Both the position numbers and the translations under genes were made by a program. The notes below the pieces were generated by a model. That model saw nothing but the letters and a program-made list of their open reading frames with translations. It was not told where the DNA came from and made no database searches. 31,225 nucleotides of DNA. Source: a virus. Location: positions 1 through 31,225 of IMG/VR virus record IMGVR_UViG_3300030101_001678, one strand, 5' to 3'. Positions within the stretch are counted from its first letter, which is position 1, and each line of letters starts with the position of its first letter. This document shows positions 11,375 to 28,103 of the stretch, in pieces.

Positions 11375-12540
11375 TTAACTTCCACTTAAACCAATAACCG
11401 CCGCATGTGCCTTGGGCGCTTTGACGATTAAAGTATATTCGCTAACTATAGCGAATTTTGTGGCGTCACCAGTGGCGGCAACGTCACTTACGCTAAACAT
11501 ACGGCCTGGGAGGGAGCCTATGCAAACGTAATCAGTATCAATCAGATATACCTCTGAATTGTTAGCCTGACGGTCAATCGTTACAGCCAACTCACCAAAA
11601 TCACTCAAATAAAGTGATACTGAGCCGACGATAGCAATATCGCGTGGTGCAGTGTAGTTTAACTGCGCTGAAGCAACTGAGCCTGATGATAGATCAGAAA
11701 AGTTCTGCTTATTTGTTGGTGACATAAGCAACATATTCGGGCTTCCACCGTCATTATATGCAGCCAACATAGCAGCATCTATTTGAGCCAAAGTTAAAGC
11801 TCTGGCAGTTCCTGTCAAATCGGCCACATCTGACCCATCACCAGTAGCAAATGCCATATCACTAGGCGCATCACCATTGGTAATCCAAGTGATAAGCTTC
11901 GCGCATTTACGCGGATCTGAGCCTGAACGAGCTTCATTGGCGAACAAGGATTTCTCTATATCGCGCCGTTGCTCAATTCCTTTGAGCACCTTAACGTATG
12001 CAGTTTCCTTATCACGCCCCGCTTTGTCAACAACATCCAAAGTATTGGATACTGAAGCCGCTTGGACCGAGATTTGGTGGTGATTCCCGAATCTTGTCGT
12101 GACAGCGGGATTGACGTAGGAATAATCAGCTCCTTCATTGGCGTGATTGTTCGCTGCAGCGCTAGCGAGCTCTTGAACTTGCCATTCGTGAAAGATACCT
12201 TTTGTGGTTTCTTTCTGTGAGTTTGAAACTAGTGGAGTTTCATCGGGATCGCATCCCCTCTCACCTTTCGATGAGGATTGGACTATATCATAACTATAAC
12301 GCAAATGTAGCTATAGTTCTGGGCGCTCTAGCCTGTTATTAAGAGGTCTAACCTCTCAGGTAGTCTCTGAACCTTCTACCGCTGTGTAGGTAGCTTGGAT
12401 GCTGATTGCCATATCATTTCTGACTTAGGGTTCCAGCAGTTCACCCAGTTTATACCGCACCGATCTTAGTTAATGCGGTAGATCACATCGCTGAGATCTT
12501 CGCGCTCTCCAATAGCTGTAGAGCTTGTGTAAGTTGCCAT
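11375..12540 (-). CDS. Major capsid protein, SU10/DUF5309 type, two exons, 314 aa
   Basis: Forms the icosahedral shell. The gene is split: exon 1 is 12540-12473 (68 nt), exon 2 is 12251-11375 (877 nt), joined across a group I intron. The joined frame is 945 nt. It begins MATYTSSTAIGEREDLSDVI and continues YRIDPDETPLVSN, the expected N terminus of this capsid family. Exon 2 continues with GIFHEWQVQELA and later RDIAIVGSVSLYLSDFGELAV, typical of SU10-like capsid proteins. Unspliced RNA stops after 24 codons (TAA just inside the intron). Start ATG 12540 has GGAGG seven bases upstream. An ORF caller would start a 309-residue protein inside the intron and lose the true N terminus. It lies between scaffold and a terminator. 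Confidence 0.9.
12252..12472 (-). ncRNA. Group I self-splicing intron in the capsid gene, 221 nt, no endonuclease
   Basis: Numbering i1 = 12472. Exon 1 ends UACCGCAU; i13-i20 (GUGCGGUA) pairs with all eight bases, including the obligate U.G at the 5' splice site (P1). Just before it, i8-i12 (GAUCG) pairs with exon 2's first five bases CGAUC (P10). The intron ends in G. Other group I elements: the P4-P6 segment GGCAAUCAGCAUCCAAGC (i63-i80); P6 hairpin CUACC/GGUAG; P7 from GUUCAGAGACUA (i101-i112) with UAGUC (i188-i192); hairpins between these strands resembling P7.1/P7.2, suggesting subgroup IA; and a 6-bp P9 with GAAA loop near the 3' end. No ORF large enough for a homing endonuclease. Splicing restores the family-typical N terminus in frame. 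Confidence 0.93.
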
Positions 12541-18977: not shown

Positions 18978-19292
18978 ATGAATTTATATAAAGAAGCAAC
19001 AGAAATTGCCAAAGAAGCTTATGAAGATACAAAGTGCTTTGATGAAGCTTGCGACAGAATACACGAAATATGTGACGGTCATGAAATCAGCATTTATTAC
19101 GGCAAGGCAATACAATTCTGCGCTGAACACCCTACCCATAGAGGTGAAGAATACCTAGAAGATTGTGGCGGCATTGCTCAAGATGGTGACACATTTGGCT
19201 CTATTGCTTGCCGCATTGCATATGCAACGCTTTTTGTATCAGCACAAGACGCTCTTTCAGAATTACAAGATGAAATTGAAGAGGTGTCATAA
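18978..19292 (+). CDS. Acidic protein preceding ArdC, 104 aa
   Basis: First gene of the plus-strand operon, with ribosome site GGAG before ATG 18978. About 24 of 104 residues are Asp or Glu against about seven Lys/Arg, so the protein is strongly negative. It has five Cys, and is largely helical. I recognise no family. Its TAA shares a base with the next ATG (TAATG), coupling it to the ArdC-like gene. The charge and neighbour allow a DNA-mimic antirestriction role, but that is inference only. Confidence 0.65.
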   Translation: MNLYKEATEIAKEAYEDTKCFDEACDRIHEICDGHEISIYYGKAIQFCAEHPTHRGEEYLEDCGGIAQDGDTFGSIACRIAYATLFVSAQDALSELQDEIEEVS

Positions 19293-20182
19293 TGTCAAAA
19301 ACAAATGAAGCATTAAATGCAATAGCTCAAACTGTCATTGGTATGATGAATGAGCATGGCACAAACTGGACAAAGCCCTGGAAAGATGCAGTTAGAGCTC
19401 ATGGCCAACCAGTAAGTGCAAGGAAAAGACCTTACACTGGTATCAACAGAATTAGCCTGGGATTATCAATAGCACTTCAGGGTCACACCTCACCAGTATT
19501 CGGAACTTTTAAACAATGGAAATCTTTAGGTGCTAATGTCAAAAAAGGCTCTAAAGGTTACAAAGTGATATTTTATACAACAGTAGTTGTAAAAGATAAG
19601 GATACAGACAAAGACAAAGCTTTACCATGCGCTAAGGTTTATACTGTCTTTAATAGTGACCAAGTGGAAAATTGGGATGGTTCTTGGTTAGAAGAGGACA
19701 TTGAAGAGTTCGATCAACAATGGAACGATATTAAAGATGTTGACCGGTTCATCAATTCCATTGGCGCTGACATTACTTTAGATAATTCAAACAGTGCATT
19801 TTATAGACCGTCAACTGACTCCATCCATATGCCAAACAAAGCACAATTTAATGATGCACAAGGTTATTATGGGACATTGTTTCATGAGCTTGTGCACTGG
19901 ACAGGCCACGAGACAAGAGAAGATAGAAAGCTTAATACTCGTTTTGGTTCTGATAAATACGCATTTGAGGAATTAGTAGCCGAATTAGGTGGTGCCATGC
20001 TTAGTGGCATCACTGGCGTTGAAGCTACACCAAGAGAAGACCATGCAATCTATCTTAATAATTGGATGCAGTGTTTAAAAGATGAACCAAAAGCTATCCA
20101 GAAAGCTTGCAGTCTAGCTGAGAAAGCTTCTCAATTTATTCTTAACAGTTCGTCAACAATAGTAATGAAAGAGGCCGCATAA
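19292..20182 (+). CDS. ardC: ArdC-like antirestriction protein (ssDNA-binding + zincin), 296 aa
   Basis: Residues ~8-120 match the ArdC N-terminal domain: GTNWTKPWKD, 'RPYTGINRISL', 'FGTFKQWKSLGANVKKGSKGYKVIFYT'. It binds single-stranded DNA in plasmid ArdC. Residues ~165-240 form a zincin metallopeptidase with HELVHWTGH (His198, Glu199, His202) and downstream FEELVAELGG, whose Glu can supply the third zinc ligand. ArdC proteins protect incoming DNA from host restriction. The length of ~300 aa is normal. The gene lies second in a repressor-controllable operon of unknown small genes. The symbol is by family likeness. Confidence 0.82.
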   Translation: MSKTNEALNAIAQTVIGMMNEHGTNWTKPWKDAVRAHGQPVSARKRPYTGINRISLGLSIALQGHTSPVFGTFKQWKSLGANVKKGSKGYKVIFYTTVVVKDKDTDKDKALPCAKVYTVFNSDQVENWDGSWLEEDIEEFDQQWNDIKDVDRFINSIGADITLDNSNSAFYRPSTDSIHMPNKAQFNDAQGYYGTLFHELVHWTGHETREDRKLNTRFGSDKYAFEELVAELGGAMLSGITGVEATPREDHAIYLNNWMQCLKDEPKAIQKACSLAEKASQFILNSSSTIVMKEAA

Positions 20183-22588: not shown

Positions 22589-23015
22589 TTTCTAACTCCC
22601 ATTTTCTCCGTTTAATCATTTCTATTTGCCATGCCTTATATTTCGCCAGATTAGGTGCGTTTAAAATTTTTCTCCGATTAGCAATTCCCTCCAACATTCC
22701 TAGACATTGAATTTCATTCACCGTAGCCAAAAAATCCTTTTCTTTTAATTCAGCAAAATCAGACGATTTTCGGGTCAAGGTTTCGGGACAGGACATGACA
22801 GTATATAAATACTGTCCTGTTGTCCTGAGATGTCCCAAAATAACCTCACCTTGTCCTAGCCGTGTCCTAGCCGTGTCCCCGAGCATGCTAAGTATATTGT
22901 TTTTATTGACTTTTTTCAGGACACCATCTGGGACATCAGGACACAGCCATTTTAACTTCAAAATTCTCGTGTCCTGAGCGTGTCCCAGCCCAATTTCGAA
23001 CGGATATTCGCCCAT
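22581..23015 (-). CDS. Hypothetical protein overlying repeat cluster, 144 aa
   Basis: The frame is uninterrupted from ATG 23015 (overlapping the primase-helicase TGA as TGATG) to 22581. The N-terminal two-thirds coincide with the TGTCC/GGACA cluster, so the amino-acid sequence there (QDTRILKLKW, CPDVPDGVLKK, GDTARTRLGQGEV, GHLRTTGQ) is constrained by DNA repeats. The C-terminal third is helical ('MLEGIANRRKILNAPNLAKYKAWQIEMIKRRKWELENE'). No family recognised. It may act on the element it contains, as lambda O does on its own origin; that is inference. Confidence 0.55.
   Translation of the reverse strand: MGEYPFEIGLGHAQDTRILKLKWLCPDVPDGVLKKVNKNNILSMLGDTARTRLGQGEVILGHLRTTGQYLYTVMSCPETLTRKSSDFAELKEKDFLATVNEIQCLGMLEGIANRRKILNAPNLAKYKAWQIEMIKRRKWELENE
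22786..22985. repeat. Cluster of 13 TGTCC/GGACA sites around an AT-rich core (candidate replication origin)
   Basis: GGACA starts at 22786, 22791, 22919, 22931 and 22939. TGTCC starts at 22813, 22821, 22831, 22852, 22863, 22874, 22970 and 22981. Spacings of exactly 11 bp occur at 22852/22863/22874 and 22970/22981. Between the two groups, 22888-22917 is AT-rich (TAAGTATATTG, TTTTTATTGACTTTTTT). Iterons flanking an unwinding-type core next to a primase-helicase fit a phage origin; transcription-factor binding or another function remains possible. Confidence 0.6.
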
Positions 23016-24781
23016 CACCCAAAAGCCTCCAAAATGACCCCTTTTTTAAGCTTAAATACGCCCTGGTCGATCATCCTTTTTATGTGTCTATTTGCTGTTC
23101 TTTGAGAACATTCTAGCTCCAATGCAACCGCTTCTTTGAGGTCAGATCTGCTTACCTCACCAAAGTCATTCATCCTATCAAATTGCTCTTTAACCACCTG
23201 TTCTGCGTAGTCTGGTGATTTTTTGTCCAGTGGTTTATCTGGTGTCATTTCGAGCACCAGTGAACTTGTGTCTTGACCATCTGCGTCCACCAAAGACACT
23301 GACAACTTCATGAACGCCAGTGGTTCGCTTTTCTCTTCATCTTTCATCTTGGTGGGTGTGAGTAATATCTTAAAATCACCCCATTGTTCGACGCGATATT
23401 CCGAGTCTAAAGAGCCATGCAAAGCGTACCCACCACGCCCTCTATCTTTGTTCTGGTGTCCTATGTGGTGGACAATCATCACAGTGGCTTGGTAGCGGTC
23501 CTTTAGCCTGTCACAGACTTGAACATACGCCATCATGTTTTGGTTATTTTCCTCTCCATCCATTGTTCTGCTGAGTGTATCAAGCACAATAAGATTGAGC
23601 TTGCCTACTTGCTCCTGAAGTGCGTCTAGCTCATTACACAAATGAAGTTCACTGTCTGGATCGTTGAGGATAACGCTACGATTGCTTTTGGCGAATGGTA
23701 CACCTGTTAGGTCTTGTTTAAAGTTCTTGCACCAAGCCGCGACACGTTTGGCGAACCCTGCATGACCCTCTCCGGCAATATAAGCAACGCTACCTTGCTG
23801 CACCTCAAGTTCGTGGTAGGGTTTGCCTGTGGCGATACACAGTGCCATATCAAGGGCTACAAAGGTTTTACCAGATCCGGCTGCACCAAATATCATGGTA
23901 AGTGAGTTATCTTCTATAACGTCTTTGATCATCCACTTGGTAGCGGTCATTCGTAAATCGCTCACCAAAGTAAAAAGTGTGTCTGGTTTTTTAACTGAGG
24001 TAAGGCTTTTATAGACTGCTTTGATGCCTAATTCTTGGTGAAGGTCGTTAAAATCTTGTCCTTTTTTGGGTGGGACAACGTAGGGTAGCTTTGTTTTCTT
24101 TGCTGCTTCGATACCTTTTTCATCGTTATCAGCCGCTACAATGAGTTCAAACTGAGGAAATGCCGTTTGTAGCTTACTGCATAGTAACGGTAGGTTTCCA
24201 GAGTCTAATCCAAATATACACGCACATTCAGGATGGGACATGGCTATACTTGCTGAAGTTGCCCATCCCTCCGCTACGTAGGTGCGCCCTTTGGTAAGCT
24301 TGCCACACACACCGAAAACACCTTCTGCCTTATTTAAGCCAGTGCTAAACAGCTTCTTCCCATTTGGTGAAATTGTTTGCTCACCCACACGTTTTCTATG
24401 TATGTTAAACAGTGGAATGACTACGTCGTTACCTTCAAGCTTTGCACCTAGCAGATCAACGCCTTTTTTCTCGTGATATGGCCTAGTATCTTCCACGTTA
24501 AATTCTTCTTTAGGTTGGAATGTTAAAACGTTGTCTTTGATAGGATCGAGTGAGCACCACAAACCGCGTTTAGCGAGTTCGCTTTGGATTGCTTGAAAAT
24601 CCCGACATTGGCGGCAATGAGTCTTGATTATGCCTTGGTGGTTGGTAATCCAGAACCTGTCTGTACCTCCACAGTTTACACAAGACCCATGCCATTCGCC
24701 CTTTGCGGTTTGCTTGAGGTCTAAACCATCTATGATGCTTTGGGCGTACTCACTCCAATAAGGTTGTTCATAGTCAGGCAT
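23015..24781 (-). CDS. Primase-helicase: zinc ribbon, TOPRIM and RecA/RepA-like ATPase, 588 aa
   Basis: Replication initiation/unwinding and priming. The N-terminal zinc ribbon has Cys34-x2-Cys37 and Cys56-x2-Cys59. The TOPRIM-type region has TYVAEGWATS (Glu171) and LIVAADNDEKG (Asp218, Asp220). The ATPase has Walker A GAAGSGKT at 299-306, IAGEGHAGFAKR ~345-356, Walker B LNLIVLD at 395-401 and 'MIVHHIGHQNKDRGRG' ~434-449, as in RepA/RSF1010-type hexameric helicases. A C-terminal winged-helix-like segment (SRSDLKEAVALELECSQRTANRHIKRM) could bind DNA. The gene starts three bases after the ssDNA-binding gene. The repeat cluster lies immediately downstream. Confidence 0.88.
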   Translation of the reverse strand: MPDYEQPYWSEYAQSIIDGLDLKQTAKGEWHGSCVNCGGTDRFWITNHQGIIKTHCRQCRDFQAIQSELAKRGLWCSLDPIKDNVLTFQPKEEFNVEDTRPYHEKKGVDLLGAKLEGNDVVIPLFNIHRKRVGEQTISPNGKKLFSTGLNKAEGVFGVCGKLTKGRTYVAEGWATSASIAMSHPECACIFGLDSGNLPLLCSKLQTAFPQFELIVAADNDEKGIEAAKKTKLPYVVPPKKGQDFNDLHQELGIKAVYKSLTSVKKPDTLFTLVSDLRMTATKWMIKDVIEDNSLTMIFGAAGSGKTFVALDMALCIATGKPYHELEVQQGSVAYIAGEGHAGFAKRVAAWCKNFKQDLTGVPFAKSNRSVILNDPDSELHLCNELDALQEQVGKLNLIVLDTLSRTMDGEENNQNMMAYVQVCDRLKDRYQATVMIVHHIGHQNKDRGRGGYALHGSLDSEYRVEQWGDFKILLTPTKMKDEEKSEPLAFMKLSVSLVDADGQDTSSLVLEMTPDKPLDKKSPDYAEQVVKEQFDRMNDFGEVSRSDLKEAVALELECSQRTANRHIKRMIDQGVFKLKKGVILEAFG

Positions 24782-26287: not shown

Positions 26288-26886
26288 TCATCCTCATCTT
26301 CTGGATAAATTTTGCCGTGTCCGTCACATATATCGCATACTACTTCATCATTACCTTTACTGCCGTTTGGAAAAATATCTAAGTATTCAGTTGTTGGGTG
26401 GCGTTTAAGCACACCATAACCGTTACACTCACGACAATGTATTGGTTTAACCTTAACAATTGGTGTTGTGTTTTTAAGAGGTGTGATTGCTAAAAGTTCT
26501 CTTGCGATTGAACAAAAAGCGTCAACAGTCATACTTACTAAATCTGTGTTTTCATCCCAAGAGCCACCGACTGCCCTTGCAAACGCATTTATTCTTATGA
26601 CTGCTATGCTTGGTTGGCGGTCAAATCGATATATCACACAAGGAAATTTGCCTATTCTATCTGCCGAACGTTGTGCTTGTTCCATCCAGGTATGACTAAA
26701 ACTACCTGATATTCTGCGTTTACATTCGATGACAAATGGAAAGTTTTCTACTTCACATATCAAATCGCCATGATCGGCTTCTCTATATTGATTTAGTTCA
26801 CGTTTGAATACTATGCCAAGGTTATCAAATAACGCTTTTTTAATTTCTGACTCGTAGCTTGCACCCTTTTTGCGACTATTCACCAT
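26284..26886 (-). CDS. PD-(D/E)XK endonuclease (resolvase-like) with CxxCxGxG zinc module, 200 aa
   Basis: The N terminus 'KKGASYESEIKKALFDN' supplies the first Glu; 'HGDLICEVENFPFVIECKRR' (~45-64) is the D...E-x-K core of Holliday-junction-resolvase-like nucleases. Residues ~150-190 hold two DnaJ-type motifs, CRECNGYG and CDICDGHG, predicted to bind zinc. I use ATG 26886, which has GAGGTGAGG 9 bp upstream, rather than the GTG at 26901. It is the first gene after cro and probably resolves branched DNA during replication or packaging. Confidence 0.7.
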   Translation of the reverse strand: MVNSRKKGASYESEIKKALFDNLGIVFKRELNQYREADHGDLICEVENFPFVIECKRRISGSFSHTWMEQAQRSADRIGKFPCVIYRFDRQPSIAVIRINAFARAVGGSWDENTDLVSMTVDAFCSIARELLAITPLKNTTPIVKVKPIHCRECNGYGVLKRHPTTEYLDIFPNGSKGNDEVVCDICDGHGKIYPEDEDE

Positions 26887-27139
26887 CAATAAAAACCTCA
26901 CCTCGCTGGGCGGCTTGATAGTAACGTCTTATTGCGTTCTCTAAATCTACTTTGACAGTAAGCCACGCTTCGACTGGCACGTTACCTTTTGTAACCTTTT
27001 GAATTTCCAAAGCAGTCACAACATTTGGTATAACGTCACCAGAAATATAACGAGATAAGGTAGGTTGACTAACGCCGATTCTCTTGGCGAGTGATGCCTG
27101 TGATAACTCTTCGGTGATCATGTACTCAAATAACTGCAA
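26876..27139 (-). CDS. Cro-like helix-turn-helix regulator, 87 aa (start may be 27121)
   Basis: Residues ~10-45 form an HTH: 'EELSQASLAKRIGVSQPTLSRYISGDVIPN', similar to Cro/CI-type repressors. A C-terminal helix follows (LENAIRRYYQAAQRGE). It is the first gene of the minus-strand early operon and divergent from the repressor. The frame opens with TTG at 27139; ATG at 27121 is an alternative giving 81 residues, and neither has a strong ribosome site. TATAAT at 27142-27147 could be a -10 just ahead of the shorter start. Confidence 0.75.
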   Translation of the reverse strand: MQLFEYMITEELSQASLAKRIGVSQPTLSRYISGDVIPNVVTALEIQKVTKGNVPVEAWLTVKVDLENAIRRYYQAAQRGEVFIDGE

Positions 27140-27452
27140 GATTATAGCCTAAATTTTGTCGATTTATTTTATTCATAATTGTGAAATATGAATAATGTCA
27201 ACTATAATATAGGTAAAATATTCTTATATTAGTCTAATCATGATACTAAAACATTGTTTTTATGATATTTTATTTAATCACGTAATGTTATAATATAATC
27301 ATTTTTATAATTTTGTATTTTTTGAATTGACAGATCTATTCATAATCGAATAAAATACCTTAGTGTTTATTGAATGAAAAATAAATATTAGTAAACAAAA
27401 ATTAATTTAGGCACAGCGGTCTTGTGTAGATTGCTCACCAAGAGGAGAAATT
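27140..27452. promoter_or_regulatory. Divergent cro/repressor control region
   Basis: Very AT-rich 313-bp gap. Plus strand: TTGACA (27327-27332), 18 bp, TAAAAT (27351-27356) drives the repressor; the inverted repeat CTATTC-ATAATC-GAATAA at 27336-27353 lies between and over these boxes. Minus strand: TTGACA (27196-27201) drives cro, with TTATTCATA (27169-27177) and TATGAATAA (27187-27195) inverted arms in the spacer, i.e. two overlapping, imperfect copies of the same operator. GAGGAG precedes the repressor start. Nothing else coding is seen. Confidence 0.75.
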
Positions 27453-28103
27453 GTGTTTACAAAAATATACGATGTTAGAACTAAGTTAAAAGTAAAACAG
27501 GACGAATTAGCAAAATTGTCCGGCGTGAGTCAAAGTCAGATAAGCAAATATGAGAAAGGTGAAGTAACCAATCCAAGTTTTGACAAACTCGTTAGAATAG
27601 CGGAAGCACTTGGAGTAACCGTAGACGATCTTAAATCTAAGATTGATGATCAATATTTTTCGCCAGTACGACAGACAACATCAGCCGTGTTCGTTCCATT
27701 TTATCAAGGAAAAACAGTAGTGAGAGAATTGAACGATGCCCTTGCAGCCCGACTAGGATTTAATAGGTTAGCTCACCAACAAATACGCAAACCAAGCTTT
27801 TTAGAATATTCTGATACTGCTTACGCCATGACGGTGTATGGAACAGCTATGCAGCCGCGATTTAAAGAGGGTGATATAATCTATGCAGACCCACAATTAA
27901 CACCACAAAATGAGGACGATGTAGTACTGTCTTTTAAATTTGATAGCTCTTTTGTTGGTGTAGTCAGAGAATTAGTAAATATTAACGCCACTAATATTAC
28001 ATTCAAAGACTTGGAAACAGGAGAAACCAAGATGTTCTCTCTTAATGATCTATACGCTGTGCATGTGGTAGTCGGATCACAAAAATACCGCGCAAATCAA
28101 TAA
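27453..28103 (+). CDS. Lysogeny repressor, HTH plus S24-like domain without catalytic dyad, 216 aa
   Basis: Residues ~5-60 are an XRE-type HTH (KVKQDELAKLSGVSQSQISKYEKGEV). Residues ~115-212 resemble the LexA/CI S24 dimerisation domain. Where active proteins have G-(N/D)-S-M, this has YGTAMQP with Ala132 in place of the nucleophile. The expected lysine is replaced by Arg172 in GVVRELV. The protein is therefore predicted not to self-cleave with RecA. GTG start at 27453 with AGGAG five bases upstream. It probably represses cro, the plus-strand operon, the integrase and itself. Confidence 0.82.
   Translation: MFTKIYDVRTKLKVKQDELAKLSGVSQSQISKYEKGEVTNPSFDKLVRIAEALGVTVDDLKSKIDDQYFSPVRQTTSAVFVPFYQGKTVVRELNDALAARLGFNRLAHQQIRKPSFLEYSDTAYAMTVYGTAMQPRFKEGDIIYADPQLTPQNEDDVVLSFKFDSSFVGVVRELVNINATNITFKDLETGETKMFSLNDLYAVHVVVGSQKYRANQ

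Follow-up and report, generated by a model that had tools for sequence, protein, structure and literature searches.

Genome context and features of the locus

The window (the whole stretch of viral DNA that was analysed) is a record of 31,225 bp. It carries an integrase, a CI-like repressor, recombination genes and its own portal, scaffold, capsid and terminase genes, so it most likely comes from a temperate tailed phage. An AT-rich control region at 27140-27450, between a Cro-like HTH gene (26876-27139, minus strand) and a CI/S24-type repressor (27453-28103, plus strand), is likely the lysogeny switch. A group I intron (Rfam RF00028, 77 bits; 12259-12494, minus strand) appears to interrupt the SU10-type major capsid gene, which consists of a short first exon with its ATG at 12540, the intron and then an ORF at 11375-12304. 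An ArdC-like anti-restriction protein with a zincin-like metallopeptidase domain is encoded at 19292-20182 (plus strand), in a small plus-strand block among mostly minus-strand genes.

The locus under study contains a primase-helicase gene, a cluster of short repeats behind it and a small gene that overlaps the cluster:

23015-24781, minus strand: primase-helicase, 588 aa, with an N-terminal Toprim primase, a RepA-like RecA-fold helicase (AAA_25, residues 269-444) and a C-terminal winged helix
23018-23209, minus strand: predicted winged helix-turn-helix, residues 525-588, the putative iteron reader
23066-23104, minus strand: recognition helix, residues 560-572, within the predicted winged helix
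22919-22985, no strand: iteron array A, 5 GGACA sites (22919, 22931 and 22939 in one direction, 22970 and 22981 in the opposite one), kept in 16 close relatives
22879-22918, no strand: AT-rich spacer between the arrays, 30% GC, candidate melting site
22786-22878, no strand: iteron array B, 8 GGACA sites, 3 of them exactly 11 bp apart
22797-22816, no strand: palindrome GACAGTATATAAATACTGTC, 20 bp, inside array B, at the same position as the CT..AG-apex palindromes of relatives
22773-22777, no strand: degenerate 14th site GGTCA, an intact GGACA in L002, L003 and L013
22581-23018, minus strand: small gene, 144-145 aa, whose 5' half overlaps the putative origin in the window clade and whose ATG at 23015 overlaps the primase stop (TGATG)

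In Pfam, the primase-helicase matches Toprim_3 (2.8e-8) and AAA_25 (3e-37), and its AlphaFold model has a pLDDT of 83.9. The best Foldseek match of the full-length model is T7 gp4, and the helicase part matches RSF1010 RepA (1nlf/1olo) with a TM (target) of 0.67-0.68; T7 gp4, RadA and RSF1010 RepA are the RecA-fold neighbours of this helicase. The last 64 residues have an H-E-H-H-E-E topology in two predictions, with good local confidence. When the winged helix is predicted alone the pTM is 0.72, and Foldseek pairs it with CRP/IclR winged helices at a probability of about 0.99 but with an E of only 0.015. Its HTH match in Pfam is sub-threshold, and a PDB search by sequence gave no significant match.

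A cluster of GGACA iterons behind the primase-helicase gene

The pentamer GGACA/TGTCC occurs exactly 13 times in 22786-22985, as the earlier note on this DNA had counted, and the Poisson chance of such a cluster is about 10^-16 (uncorrected for the number of pentamers and positions scanned). The whole window holds 55 copies against 44.5 ± 6.3 expected, so the pentamer density outside the cluster is ordinary. Outside the cluster, the maximum is 3 copies per 200 bp and any other pentamer reaches at most 7. The motif-density scan that had been proposed as a check thus leaves the cluster unique, and the equal density elsewhere that was to count against an origin is absent within the window.

The 11-bp phasing is exact for a triple (22852/22863/22874) and a pair (22970/22981). 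Read on the coding strand, there are 2 sites, 3 inverted sites, the 40-bp spacer, 3 sites at 11 bp, 3 more sites, the 20-bp palindrome and 2 inverted sites (>> <<< spacer >>> >>> palindrome <<), which agrees with the earlier description of divergent groups flanking an AT-rich stretch. The spacer has 30% GC, yet it is not the lowest-GC 40-mer in the vicinity. A minimum of the cumulative GC skew had been expected near 22.9 kb and none was seen; the skew of this small genome seems to be set by the orientation of its genes, which makes the absent minimum uninformative.

As close relatives we took 16 viral contigs with a primase-helicase 93-97% identical to that of the window. All 16 keep 11-14 pentamers. 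Where close relatives retain the ORF, the cluster is retained too, whereas loss of the cluster in such relatives had been named as a sign against the origin. In an alignment of 12 sequences, 5 of 57 iteron columns are variable, compared with 40 of 138 other columns (p 0.002).

The small gene overlapping the cluster

For the frame of the small gene, the synonymous share in 12 sequences is 0.66 vs 0.28 for neutral change, and 0.32 and 0.09 in the shifted frames. Codon position 3 shows a modest bias (23 of 46 variable columns, p 0.014), and part of the coding-like signal may stem from constraint on the repeats. A similar frame is annotated in CRP-406; the small gene itself has no match in Pfam or PHROG. 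Judged by this conservation, the small ORF looks real in the window clade. A start at Met74, after the putative origin, was considered from L016-like relatives and dropped for the window clade: L006, L008 and L014 are without that Met and the upstream frame is conserved.

At the homologous place in L016, L018, L028 and L123 there are stops in every frame, which argues that the putative origin, not the ORF, is conserved. The earlier description of an origin hidden in an ORF therefore suits the window clade, with its coding-like conservation, but not these loci, which are closed by stops. The origin probably also codes in the window clade and need not do so across the family. It is hardly credible that the repeats are merely a repetitive segment of a protein. 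The ORF is indeed open and its frame is conserved in the window clade, but copies of the pentamer fall in several frames and on either strand, and in L016, L028 and L123 the homologous arrays lie where no frame is free of stops.

Homologous loci keep the layout and change the repeat

We compared 136 non-redundant loci from viral contigs, named phages and bacterial genomes, and scored a cluster where at least 6 copies of one hexamer fell within 220 bp. Such a cluster is found at the end of the primase-helicase gene in 74% of the 136 loci, compared with 0.8% of 1606 other tiles and 0 of 680 shuffled regions. About a quarter of the homologous loci are without a strong cluster under this hexamer measure.

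The repeat itself changes from lineage to lineage. In L016-L021 (40% identity) GGACA is gone and CGACA/TGTCG repeats stand at the same place. Other loci carry GGTTCA (Alteromonas PB15 and XX1924), GGTACA (Idiomarinaceae 1N2-2), GCTGGA (Roseobacter CRP-406), ATACCA (L026), CTACAAA (CRP-811 and CRP-823) or CGTGACA (Rhizobium 16-3). The 58 hexamers fall into 26-30 groups (cross-occurrence thresholds 0.4-0.5), with some merging via chaining, and the largest group is GGACA-like.

The spacing of same-strand iterons peaks at 9-11 bp across loci, and in most arrays two or more groups are set apart by a larger gap, often of low GC. In the 67 loci with a largest inner gap of 25-80 bp, this gap has 39% GC vs 51% for the locus, and it is the lower of the two in 57. 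In most loci, the stretch of lowest GC within the array does not stand out (median percentile 0.26), so among the measures of AT-richness only the comparison of spacer and locus is clear. DnaA boxes are rare and not a general feature (0.10 per origin region vs 0.02 in controls). On the level of sequence comparison, the position at the gene end, the structure of the array and its spacing are established as common properties of these loci.

Among more distant RepA-like helicases (N15, Caulobacter GB2A, Nocardia NBR1 and Corynebacterium phi674), no cluster was found at that place. N15, a known RepA phage, was considered as an experimental anchor and dropped, there being no such cluster at its repA. 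Some strong hexamer clusters lie away from the helicase gene, at distances from the helicase stop of +950 (L069), -2458 (L109), +3350 (L152), +1550 (L206) and -4640 (L269); they may be tandem repeats or other origins.

Packaging (pac) and partition (centromere-like) sites can be repeat arrays near AT-rich DNA too, and the cluster might be read as one of these. We regard this as extremely unlikely: the cluster is tied to the primase-helicase gene across widely different genomes, no partition genes are present among the window genes scanned, and the large terminase gene is about 5 kb away.

A palindrome beside the iterons

Perfect palindromes whose apex is CT..AG, in many cases ACACYCCTATAGGRGTGT, are present in 66% of origin regions vs 6.8% of control tiles. 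The window's own palindrome, GACAGTATATAAATACTGTC, is without the CT..AG apex, and a different palindrome replaces it at the same place in L006, L008, L011 and L014. ACACYCCTATAGGRGTGT recurs across hosts (e.g. L040, L217, L234 and L245) though the adjacent iterons differ.

Iteron arrays often double as operators, and the small gene begins at the cluster. The cluster could accordingly be an autoregulatory operator, through which the primase-helicase winged helix or another regulator controls transcription of the replication operon. This explanation is improbable, as the primase-helicase gene has the cluster at its 3' end and not at its promoter, and 13 sites in two groups with a low-GC spacer and a palindrome exceed the needs of an operator. 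Moreover, the genes beyond the cluster vary among lineages.

The winged helix of the primase-helicase as the likely reader

Close pairs of loci show which part of the protein follows the repeat. When the helicase cores are at least 97% identical, the identity of the winged helix is 98.7% in pairs with matching iterons (81 pairs) and 70.3% in pairs with differing iterons (12 pairs from 15 loci, pairs of loci not being independent), while the N-termini are about 95% identical in both classes. Between L127 and L125, for example, 3 residues of the N-terminus, 2 of the core and 14 of the C-terminus are different, and all 11 iterons are one base apart, with GTAACA in one locus and GTACCA in the other. 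Two further pairs, L098/L101 and L255/L258, give a similar picture. Where relatives have GGACA iterons, their recognition helices follow a common pattern like SQRTANRxIKxMID. Over all 4186 pairs, the correlation between iteron and C-terminal similarity is weak (0.15; partial 0.06): distant pairs have neither iterons nor C-terminus in common, so that only close pairs are informative.

The covariation of iterons and winged helix, which the comparison of close pairs brings out, argues that the primase-helicase's own winged helix is likely the reader of the iterons. As far as these sequences go, repeat and reader change together between lineages. The earlier note's origin beside the primase-helicase gene is strongly supported by comparison (74% of loci vs 0.8% of tiles), but its mechanism has to be changed, the winged helix of the primase-helicase now being the likely reader.

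An apparent exchange of a cassette is seen between L016 and L026 (L120). Their DNA is about 90% identical in the 5' half of the primase, about 50% through the helicase, the C-terminus and the repeats, and then 76-96% in the next genes. From this profile, the helicase, the C-terminus and the origin seem to have been swapped together as a single unit that left out the small downstream protein. The 144-aa protein, which the note had suggested as a binder, is therefore unlikely in that role, for L016 and L026 have it in near-identical form although they differ in the helicase half and the iterons. The same observation bears on the idea of an origin whose reader is another phage protein, be it Cro-like or the product of the small downstream gene. 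This idea has a basis in Alteromonas, Salicola and Idiomarinaceae phages, where the primase gene is directly preceded by a small gene with a transcriptional-regulator annotation; the window, however, is without a regulator gene there, and the iteron switches track the C-terminus of the primase. A reader other than the primase-helicase is thus distinctly improbable.

A putative replication origin and its mechanism

Taken together, 22786-22985 is very probably the replication origin of the phage, with its GGACA iterons presumably bound by the winged helix of the primase-helicase. The C-terminal winged helix would bind both iteron groups and assemble the protein on either side of the spacer. The spacer would then melt, the RepA-like ring would be loaded at the melted DNA, and the protein's own Toprim domain would lay primers, perhaps at the nearby palindrome. 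The physical binding, the melting, the ring loading, the direction of the fork and any role of the palindrome are what we infer here.

With somewhat less than even confidence, we extend this to a large group of tailed phages. In such phages, a single polypeptide of Toprim, RecA-fold ring and winged helix would recognise its own origin and deliver a RepA/DnaB-like ring to double-stranded DNA without a separate initiator. The iterons and the winged helix would make up a matched code that changes fast, with the constant CCTWWAGG palindrome as a dedicated site for priming or loading. The open-licence literature searched gave no account of such an origin in phages, although one may exist elsewhere.

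If the reading is true, sequence would allow the origin to be predicted in a large group of marine phages and bacterial prophages, since it would lie where the RepA-like helicase gene ends. The recognition code of the initiator would be directly testable with the many natural iteron switches, some of which change a single base per copy alongside few protein changes. The reading would also raise the question of how a fused domain places a RepA/DnaB-like ring at the origin, given that rings of this kind normally depend on a separate initiator or loader.

Comparison with known replication systems

The origin of lambda lies inside gene O, with iterons and AT-rich DNA within the coding frame. The earlier note drew a parallel with lambda O/P. 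However, the window iterons come after the primase-helicase gene instead of inside an initiator gene, and this gene brings its own helicase; lambda O and host DnaB are separate proteins, while the helicase and presumed reader of the window are one protein, and the SaPI/PICI rep-ori fits better. T7 gp4 resembles the window protein in joining a Toprim primase to a RecA-fold helicase, but it is not known to have a C-terminal winged helix or to read an iteron origin. The helicase of P4 alpha belongs to a different superfamily, and SaPI Rep is an AAA+ (SF3/MCM-like) helicase.

In P4 alpha, a Toprim-type primase, a helicase and a winged helix that binds the origin repeats are combined in one protein (PMC4234260). 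The window protein also joins a Toprim primase, a helicase and a (predicted) winged helix, but P4 is a satellite phage and its origin repeats are unlike those of the window. RSF1010 oriV works with a RepA-fold hexameric helicase, iterons and priming at the hairpins ssiA and ssiB (PMC4234260, PMC4434180). The window helicase is of the RepA fold as well (1nlf/1olo, TM (target) 0.67-0.68), whereas RepA, RepB' and RepC of RSF1010 are separate proteins, RepC and not the helicase reads the iterons, and RepB' is not a Toprim primase. No match to RepC was found among the window genes scanned.

The closest likeness is to SaPI/PICI elements, in which functional tests show that the initiator-helicase reads iterons just 3' of its own gene and the region 3' of the initiator gene was tested as an origin in plasmids (PMC6092414, PMC7581432). 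In their rep-ori, a C-terminal domain reads short iterons, two sets of iterons flank an AT-rich stretch, and a primase is sometimes fused (Ubeda et al. 2007 as cited in PMC7581432; PMC6092414). The window agrees in position and repeats, with iterons just 3' of the primase-helicase gene, and in having two iteron sets around an AT-rich spacer of 30% GC; its putative C-terminal reader is a predicted winged helix that covaries with the iterons. In contrast, its helicase is not AAA+ (SF3/D5-like) but RecA-fold and RepA-like (AAA_25), fused to Toprim, and its own portal, scaffold, capsid and terminase genes do not fit the lifestyle of a satellite. The window locus would resemble a SaPI/PICI rep-ori in the way it works, but it does not belong to that type, since the helicase fold and the lifestyle differ. 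These loci appear to represent a second instance of the SaPI/PICI origin layout, built on a different helicase, and if this is true, an origin layout reported as peculiar to PICIs would extend to ordinary phages.
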